NCBI GenBank assembly: GCA_036898135.1
Contig: CM072512.1
Location: forward strand, 7,361,484-7,425,483
Reading direction: 5' to 3'
DNA from: Oncomelania hupensis
Lineage: Eukaryota > Mollusca > Gastropoda > Littorinimorpha > Pomatiopsidae
Length of the DNA stretch: 64,000 nt
Part shown: positions 33,601-36,600 of the stretch, in pieces
How positions within the stretch are numbered: position 1 is the first letter of the stretch
Layout of the letters: each line of letters begins with the position of its first letter
Made by a program: the position numbers and the translations under genes
Notes under the pieces: generated by a model
Seen by the model: only the letters and a program-made list of their open reading frames with translations
Told to the model about the DNA's origin: nothing
The model's database searches: none

Positions 33601-36600
33601 ATCAACCTAACAACAGCGCATCCTTGCTGTCAGAGAAAAAATTTCAATTTCAATTTCAATGGTTGAATTTATTGTCTCTTCACGACAGTGATATTAGACA
33701 ATTAATTTAATTACAAAACAATAAAACAAACAACTGTAGTGATATCAGTTACAACACTGTTGATAAGGACGATTTCATGATGACGTTTACGATATCGTAA
33801 ATAATAGGACTTCGCACAACTTCTAGAATGTCACAAGTTGTTATGTTTACACCATTGTCTCTGTACATTGATTGCAGCACTGGGCAATCAACAATCAGAT
33901 GTTGGACTGTAATGTTTTCTGAACATATACATGTAATATCTTTCACATATTTCGTACTCCATGAATTCAATAGTAATTTATAAACCAGCCTTGACACACT
34001 TCTAGGTCCTTTTACAGTACTTCCTAGTTTAACATTTCTGTAAGCTACTTTTTCCAAAAGGGCAAAATATTCACATGCAGCTAAGTCAACCTTGAGCATG
34101 ACAGCGTCAGAATTGTTCGCTCCTGACTTAGCCAACGCATCCGAGAGCTCATTACCATAAATACCTACATGAGATGGTACCCAACAAAAAGTCACACTGG
34201 TGCCTCTCATACGTAAACAATGTATAAGAAATCGTATTTCAAACAATAAATCTGTACGATTTTTGCTTTTCCAATTTCTTAAGGCAAGGAGCACAGCCTT
34301 AGAATCAACACAAATTGCTACTTGAAGTATTTGTTTAGGAATAGATAAAATGTATTCTGTAGCCATTAATATAGCAACAAGTTCACATGTGAATACTGAT
34401 AAATTATTACCTAAACAATAAGAACGGTTGATTTTTAGTGCGGGTATACTAAACCCTGCACCACATGCTGATGACTCGAGTATACTACCGTCTGTGAACA
34501 CTTTTAAATGTTGCGAGTAATGGTTTGAAATATGCTCTTGAAACTCAGATTTAAGCATATTATCATTTTTATTTTTCTTTAACTCGGTGTAATCTAAATC
34601 AAATTCTGCTTTTAAGTGTTCCCAAGGTGGAATTCTTGGAGAAACAGGCATTATCGGAATGTTTGCAATATCAATATTACATTCCATCATAATGTCATGT
34701 GTATAGTCTTGTGTTGTTTGAATATAAAAAATATTCTGTGTTACTTTTGGATATTGTTTTTTCGAAAAGTTTATAATTTCCTCTTTTACTGAGTTCTCTA
34801 CAGACAAACCTCGTATCAAATATTTTGCAGTTGCTAATTTGCGTTGTTCTGACAATGACAGTAAACCACACTCTTTATACACATTTAATGTGTTTGTGTG
34901 CACTGGAACACCCAGGGCCACTTTAATGGACTTACTGTCAATACTTTGAAGCCTGTTTAAGAGATAAGTAGGGGCTGAAAAATAAATTTCTTGGCCATAT
35001 AACAACTTTGACGTAACAAGGGACGTCGCTAAATGCAACAAAGTTTTAGTGTCTTGGCTAAATGGTTGAAAACTTAAAATCTTTAATAAGTTCAACCTCT
35101 GCATTGCTTTTTTAATTAAATACTCAATATGAGATTTCCATTTTAACATGGGAGTAAAATGTACACCTAAGAATTTAATATTTTGCTTATAGGATAACAC
35201 TTGATTTTCTAATATAAGGACTGGTAATTGTTTTGGATTCATATATTCATGTATTACTGAAACCGAAGAAAAATATAAAAACTAATATTGTAATAGTAAT
35301 AAACAGTAATAGTTCCTATCTTAAAGCAAGGTAAGTCTGCGACATCTGTAAACAGTTATCGTCCTATTGCGTTAACATCCCATGTAGGAAAATTATTGGA
35401 AAAAATTGTAAATGAGAGATTAGGTTATTTTTGTGATAAAAATAACATTATTCCAACGGCTCAAGCTGGATTCCGAAAAGGTCGTAGCACAACAGACCAT
35501 TTAGTTAAACTCACTAGTCATATTAAAAAACAGTTTTCTAAAAGAAAAAGTGTGCTTGCTACTTTCTTCGACATAAAGAAAGCGTATGACAGTGTTTGGC
35601 ACGCAAGACTTTTGTATAAGTTGAAAACTATTGGTCTCAGTGGAAACATCTATTCGTACATAAAAAGCTTATTGGTGGAAAGGACTATTTGTACTAGAGT
35701 AGGACACACATATTCTTCTAATAGAAATATTAATATGGGTATATCTCAAGGGTCAATCATTGCACCGTTACTTTTTTCTCTCCTAATAAGTGACCTCCCA
35801 GGTGTATTATCTAAATATACACACGTTGTGCAATATGCAGACGATATCGCTATCTGGATTAATACAACACTTAGAAAACGAACCAACAAAAGAACAGTGT
35901 TATATATACAAAAGCTGTATCAGCTTGAATTAAACAACCTAAATTTGTTTATGCAAGAAAATGGTTTGCAACTGTCTGGTGAAAAAACAAGTTTAATGTT
36001 ATTGCTGTCAGAGGTACAGTCTAGCGTATCAACCTAAAAACAGTGCATCCTTGCTGTCTGAGGTACAGTCTAGCGTATCAACCTAACAACAGTGCATCCT
36101 TGCTGTCTGAGGTACAGTCTAGCCTATCAACCTAACAAAAGTGCATCCTTGCTGTCAGAGGTACAGTCTAGCGTATCAACCTAACAACAGTGCATCCTTG
36201 CTGTCAGAGGCACAGTCTAGCGTATCAACTTAACAACAGTGCATCCTTGCTGTCTGAGGTACAGTCTAGCGTATCAACCTAACAACAGTGCATCCTTGCT
36301 GTCAGAGGTACAGTCTAGCGTATCAACCTAACAACAGTGCATCCTTGCTGTCTGAGGTAGAGTCTAGCGTATCAACCTAACAACAGTGCATCCTTGCTGT
36401 CTGAGGTACAGTCTAGCCTATCAACCTAACAACAGTGCATCCTTGCTGTCTGAGGTACAGTCTAGCATATCAACCTAACAACAGTGCATCCTTGCTGTCT
36501 GAGGTACAGTCTAGCGTATCAACCTAACAACAGCGCATCCTTGCTGTCAGAGGTACAGTCTAGCGTATCAACCTAACAACAGTGCATCCTTGCTGTCTGA

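Follow-up and report, generated by a model that had tools for sequence, protein, structure and literature searches.

The locus studied here lies in a 64,000-nucleotide stretch of Oncomelania hupensis DNA (the window; C2:7361484-7425483 of a 1.45-Gb genome), in which a 49-bp minisatellite is interrupted by an insert of 2,366 bp with a GC content of 33%. The insert holds two segments of a LINE on opposite strands, separated by a 60-bp stretch of other sequence (Table 1). An array unit breaks off after TTGCTGTCAGAG, the same 12 bases restart the array beyond the insert, and joining the two flanks without the insert gives units that are in phase. These observations confirmed two claims of an earlier note on this DNA, namely that the insert was captured in a minisatellite and that it is bounded by an exact 12-bp target-site duplication (TSD). 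A single TSD encloses both LINE segments. Any re-entry into a 49-bp array yields some in-phase overlap, and the true length of the duplication is known modulo 49 only; an overlap in the 11-13 bp range that is usual for TSDs of the LINE family has a chance of 3/49.

A genome search with a 208-bp query placed 14 of 14 matches to the minisatellite inside this array and none outside it, a result that is no proof of rarity because the search skips very common words. Over the whole array, a TCTGAG form occurs 23 times and a TCAGAG form 22 times, and four consecutive units at window 36590-36773 are only 46 bp long. Elsewhere in the window, frames at 39652-40512 (-) and 54194-55981 (+) resemble reverse transcriptase by eye and apparently belong to other LINE families, and a 32-bp tandem array at 24401-25369 is open on the minus strand over 364 codons.

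Table 1. Features of the interrupted minisatellite and its insert, in window coordinates
Feature	Position	Strand	Evidence
49-bp minisatellite, left part (target)	32435..33635	.	TRF, 24.5 copies, 96% matches; unit list
TSD copy 1, TTGCTGTCAGAG	33624..33635	.	Exact 12-bp direct repeat
LINE 3' tail, (TTGAAA)3 followed by a run of 6 T	33636..33659	-	Sequence
3' segment (first cDNA): C-terminal part of ORF2 with RNase H, 3' UTR and tail	33636..35243	-	95.6-98.6% identity to 20 collinear copies
497-codon frame, still open, from the C-terminal part of ORF2, with an RNase H domain	33749..35242	-	Frame listing; domain match
60-bp filler between the two cDNAs	35244..35303	+	Without match in collinear copies
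35-nt filler core, equal to C4:16309434-16309468 (-)	35247..35281	+	35/35 identical, E 4.8e-9
22-nt filler remainder, with GTAATAGT recurring 14 bp on	35282..35303	+	Sequence
Inverted segment (second cDNA): reverse-transcriptase part of ORF2	35304..36001	+	Domain match; alignment of copies
TSD copy 2, TTGCTGTCAGAG	36002..36013	.	Exact 12-bp direct repeat
49-bp minisatellite, right part	36002..36960	.	TRF; unit list

Searching the genome with the insert sequence gave 75 matches; we scored the best 40 of 2,178 candidate places and fetched 20 copies (L009-L028) for comparison. Seven copies are complete: they share the 5' end GGATTCCTACG, reach the 3' end and measure about 5,680 bp (5,684 nt for the element). 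Two of the copies (L011 and L017) have open frames of 576 and 1,260 codons, and a third (L016) has frames of 559 and 1,260 codons. The ORF2 of L011 carries an APE-type endonuclease (PF14529) and a reverse transcriptase (RT; PF00078), and an RNase H domain (PF00075, E 6.3e-11) was found in its C-terminal part after having been missed by the whole-protein scan. An ORF2 search returned 292 homologues, and most of the 120 listed have RT, endonuclease and RNase H domains; none of these 120 carries a clade name. An exact-match script, which may include 1-2 element bases in the duplication, found TSDs of 11-13 bp in 9/20 copies and of 6-9 bp in three copies; eight copies had none, one of which (L019) is flanked by N. 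The 12-bp TSD in the window is of the family length.

The inverted segment corresponds to element positions of about 3371-4069 and the 3' segment to about 4080-5683. Domain matches placed RVT_1 on the + strand (window:35399-36001, E 1.5e-29) and RNase_H on the - strand (window:33749-35239, E 9.1e-11), in agreement with the opposite strands and the RNase H proposed earlier. The proposed TTGAAA tail is likewise present at the minus-strand end of the insert, and a word search found the start of the tail, TTGAAATTG, in 12/20 fetched copies. Some copies only (L014, L015 and the window at 33636-33641) have a run of 6-7 T between the TTGAAA tail and the TSD.

Mapping of the fetched relatives, seven of them full-length, showed the two segments to be collinear as supposed: in 20/20 copies both parts share a strand, with the RT part upstream. 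Among the 40 scored places, the RT part adjoins the 3' part in one orientation in 33 and six are 5'-truncated before the RT part, leaving the window as the only place where the two segments are inverted relative to each other; no such inversion was seen at the 39 others, in a scored list that favours long copies. The 1.1-1.2 kb upstream of the six copies that lack the RT part gave no significant inverted match (best minus-strand hit, E 0.075). In one of the 33 collinear places (L021), an internal 112-bp stretch (element 2278-2389) is inverted with extra sequence on both sides. Eight homologous proteins with both parts align to the + strand of the window first and then to the - strand, seven of them without overlap and the distant P0020 with an overlap of 8 residues.

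At the boundary between the segments, the collinear copy L009 reads GTTATT-CAATAATGG-TATGAATCC, with a gap of 11 nt, while in the window the inverted segment ends in GTTA(TT) and the other segment starts with TATGAATCC. Comparison of these boundary sequences indicates that 9-11 nt of the element are missing from the window; the 2 nt (TT) after 36001 can be assigned to the element or to the TSD. The geometry described in the earlier note needs correction in two respects. The two ends that face away from each other are not the ones adjacent in the ancestor; there, the 3' segment's inner end (35243) adjoins the RT segment's outer end (36001), an order that is still that of twin priming. Moreover, the two segments have no junction near 35280; one stops at 35243 and the other at 35304, on either side of the filler.

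Compared with the 20 copies, the window has private substitutions at 13/1,587 columns of the 3' segment and 7/698 columns of the RT segment, and the two rates are not different (Fisher p 0.63). Non-majority variants common to the window and L009-L015 + L022 number four in the 3' segment and one in the RT segment (one of these is also in L020 and one also in L023), and one further 3'-segment variant is common to the window and L015 alone. The shared subfamily variants and the similar private rates support derivation of both segments from one source, with a similar age.

The 497-codon frame had been described as intact. It is still open, but it is only the C-terminal piece of the 1,260-codon ORF2 frame and begins at an internal ATG. 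Its private changes are 3 synonymous to 10 non-synonymous, compared to 12-15 synonymous and 9-12 non-synonymous between two groups of copies over the same stretch, and a frame with 13 random changes remains open with a simulated probability of 0.59. On these grounds, the frame is best read as an unconstrained, decaying C-terminal ORF2 remnant without sign of function.

We further analyzed the filler at the inversion joint. An 80-bp query matched the window itself and C4:16309434-16309468, which was the only other exact place found for the 35-nt core in 1.45 Gb. When up to 3 mismatches were allowed, a 34-nt pattern occurred in the window (0 mismatches), on C4 (0) and on C8 (3), and the reversed control of the pattern gave no match at the same tolerance. 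The 22-nt remainder had no second genomic place at up to 1 mismatch. The element itself and the window were tried as sources of the filler and rejected, since their alignments did not exceed the best of 40 shuffles. On C4, a minisatellite of roughly 24-bp units (read by eye) abuts an incomplete copy of a dispersed coding repeat (L038, C4:16306000-16313000). At least 39 further places carry this repeat at 86-89%; three of its copies match each other at 94-97% over 2.5 kb or more, and one copy holds a 739-codon open frame. The repeat is probably another transposon. Its frame in L041 resembles a Maverick/Polinton-type polymerase by motifs only; Pfam gave just a sub-threshold Endonuclease_7 match (E 0.0051), and comparison of the frame with PDB sequences gave nothing at E <= 1. 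Since the 35 nt on C4 belong to a longer copy of the repeat, C4 is likely the donor and the window the recipient. The frame of the donor repeat runs in the sense of the window + strand, so that extension of the second cDNA by a reverse transcriptase would have used a template in mRNA sense.

Twin priming, a route best known from human LINE-1, very probably generated the insertion in one retrotransposition event. Ostertag and Kazazian reportedly put it forward in 2001 for 5'-inverted human LINE-1 insertions. We infer the priming and joining steps from what the locus displays: an insertion, a duplication, collinear relatives, an inverted 5' segment and a filler. The endonuclease of the element would nick one strand, which would prime reverse transcription at the tail, and the first cDNA would be copied up to element position ~4080. 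A second nick 12 bp away would free the other DNA end, whose last bases are ...AA; this end would anneal about 10 nt upstream on the same RNA (position ~4069) and prime the second cDNA to ~3371. The two cDNA ends would then be joined with the loss of 9-11 nt of the element and the gain of 60 bp of filler, of which at least 35 nt would be copied from the dispersed coding repeat. This copying would reflect either DNA repair synthesis or a switch of the reverse transcriptase to the repeat's transcript as template.

Twin priming explains the order of the segments, the border exactly at the TSD, the small gap and the 12-bp duplication. The inverted segment ends exactly at the duplication, and no more than 11 nt of the 5,684-nt element separate the two segments. 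The microhomology at the second priming site is 2 nt, which is within chance. Counting against twin priming are the eight of 20 copies without a script-detected TSD, a duplication length known only modulo 49, and the lack of such an inversion at the 39 other places of a list that favours long copies. With its TSD, collinear relatives and inverted 5' segment, the earlier reading as twin priming held up, and the filler is an addition to it.

We considered whether an ordinary 5'-truncated insertion might have had its 5' end inverted later by breakage and repair. Such an event would yield the opposite strands, and repair could add distant filler, as in the class 2 templated sequence insertions described in passages of PMC5110952. 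However, one break would be needed exactly on the border between TSD and element and the other inside the element with just 9-11 nt lost, which makes a later inversion very improbable. Independent arrival of two LINE fragments in the array could explain two segments on opposite strands, but one duplication encloses both, and they complement each other as parts of a single element, with 11 nt between them, the same subfamily and a similar private rate. A second tail or duplication would also be expected from two insertions and none was seen, with no tail at 35243-35304; we regard this origin as negligible. The insert sits in a tandem array, where assemblies fail, and an assembly error at the repeat has to be weighed for that reason. 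We give it a very slight chance, considering that the two TSD copies agree exactly and have the length usual in the family, the flanks stay in phase, both segments show similar private rates and the filler does not consist of array sequence.

The filler might also have arisen without a foreign donor, by local slippage or by polymerase-theta-like templating from the cDNA ends. The 7-mers it has in common with the 60-bp flanks cover 34/60 nt, which was reached by 1/2000 shuffles (20/2000 for 6-mers and 63/2000 for 8-mers, with no shared 9-mer), and GTAATAGT is repeated 14 bp apart. The same 7-mer cover was reached by 33/1500 AT-matched flank pairs, indicating a weak enrichment, and local templating of the 35-nt core is refuted by the exact match at C4:16309434-16309468. 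A wholly local origin of the filler is therefore very improbable too. For the 22-nt remainder, in which GTAATAGT recurs, local slippage or templating may hold.

The inversion ascribed here to twin priming resembles 5' inversions of human LINE-1 (L1), as described in passages of PMC2912911 and PMC12016303, in its inverted 5' segment, TSD, 3' tail and small gap between the copied stretches. The window element is not L1; it has RNase H and a (TTGAAA)n tail. In those passages, the inversion joints of L1 show microhomology (PMC2912911), or the two cDNAs overlap or leave a gap (PMC12016303), whereas the joint in the window is a 60-bp filler of which 35 nt are foreign, a difference that counts against twin priming. 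A passage of PMC12016303 gives 18.4% (165/897) of germline L1 as inverted, a proportion with which the 0/39 found here is not comparable because our scored list favours long copies. A parallel in TSD length is Nimb-2_DR, a zebrafish element of the I group with TSDs of 10-15 bp that peak near 12 bp; passages of PMC4245944 report one 5' inversion of this element in DT40 cells. The other 5' inversions in those assays were of L1 in human cells, and most of them had TSDs of 10-20 bp. Nimb-2_DR is alike in its ~12-bp TSD and its 5' inversion, its case coming from cell culture, and it is compared here by those features. Short distant sequence that serves as a patch or is joined to a LINE, possibly via RNA, is described in passages on class 2 templated sequence insertions (PMC5110952) and on L1-RNA chimeras (PMC13174262); the window differs in that the patch lies between two cDNAs of one insertion.

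The element family itself is unusual in its ORF1. A LINE of the I clade is expected to have an ORF1 with CCHC zinc knuckles, and the I-superfamily ORF2 feature set of APE endonuclease, RT and RNase H is present in the family; however, a search for the CCHC pattern in the ORF1 of L011 (L011:5119-6846, -) found none, and the frame has an esterase domain instead. The I-type affiliation given in the earlier note is a candidate one. This GDSL/SGNH domain (PF13472, E 6.1e-9, 37.1 bits against a cut-off of 32.9) carries the S, N and D..H catalytic blocks. HDS and DEIHPT are kept in 10/10 copies; these were selected for the word GINDLKSG and are thereby bound to have that block. By eye, the protein also has a coiled-coil-like stretch and an Arg/Gly-rich tail. 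P0024, the one homologue found with ORF1, shares the GDSL/SGNH domain. The best PDB match of ORF1 was weak (4c1b, 'ORF1-encoded protein', E 0.088), an entry which we take to be the ZfL2-1 esterase. The ORF1 of the family is a predicted GDSL/SGNH esterase of type IV.

We found no relatives of the family in viral contigs and one in genome contigs, L039, with an ORF2 35% identical and an ORF1 with CCHC zinc knuckles. The 7.7-kb contig of this distant relative is assigned to a bacterial MAG, probably through contamination. Esterase ORFs are ascribed to CR1, L2, RTEX and Penelope elements in passages of PMC3905857, PMC4120745 and PMC5408684; these elements are alike in their GDSL/SGNH ORF1, and the family differs from them by the RNase H in its ORF2. 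Our paper searches, with Repbase outside their scope, did not find an esterase ORF1 paired with RNase H, and the pairing is not described in the passages of PMC5408684 and PMC5563155.

More speculatively, and with considerable doubt, the observations could be united in a retrotransposition that used three templates, in which both target ends would prime one LINE RNA and one cDNA would switch to the transcript of a second transposon before joining, the family being an RNase H-keeping LINE lineage whose zinc-knuckle ORF1 was exchanged for an esterase ORF1. In the passages of the literature cited above, 5' inversions are mainly those of L1; the present case is a natural one from a LINE with RNase H, and with its 12-bp TSD it fits, outside L1, the pattern of PMC4245944, in which TSDs of 10-20 bp go with most L1 inversions. 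The traceable foreign patch at the joint suggests that the joining of cDNAs can copy a third sequence, and the pairing of an esterase ORF1 with RNase H, if confirmed, would represent a further exchange of ORF1 between LINE lineages.
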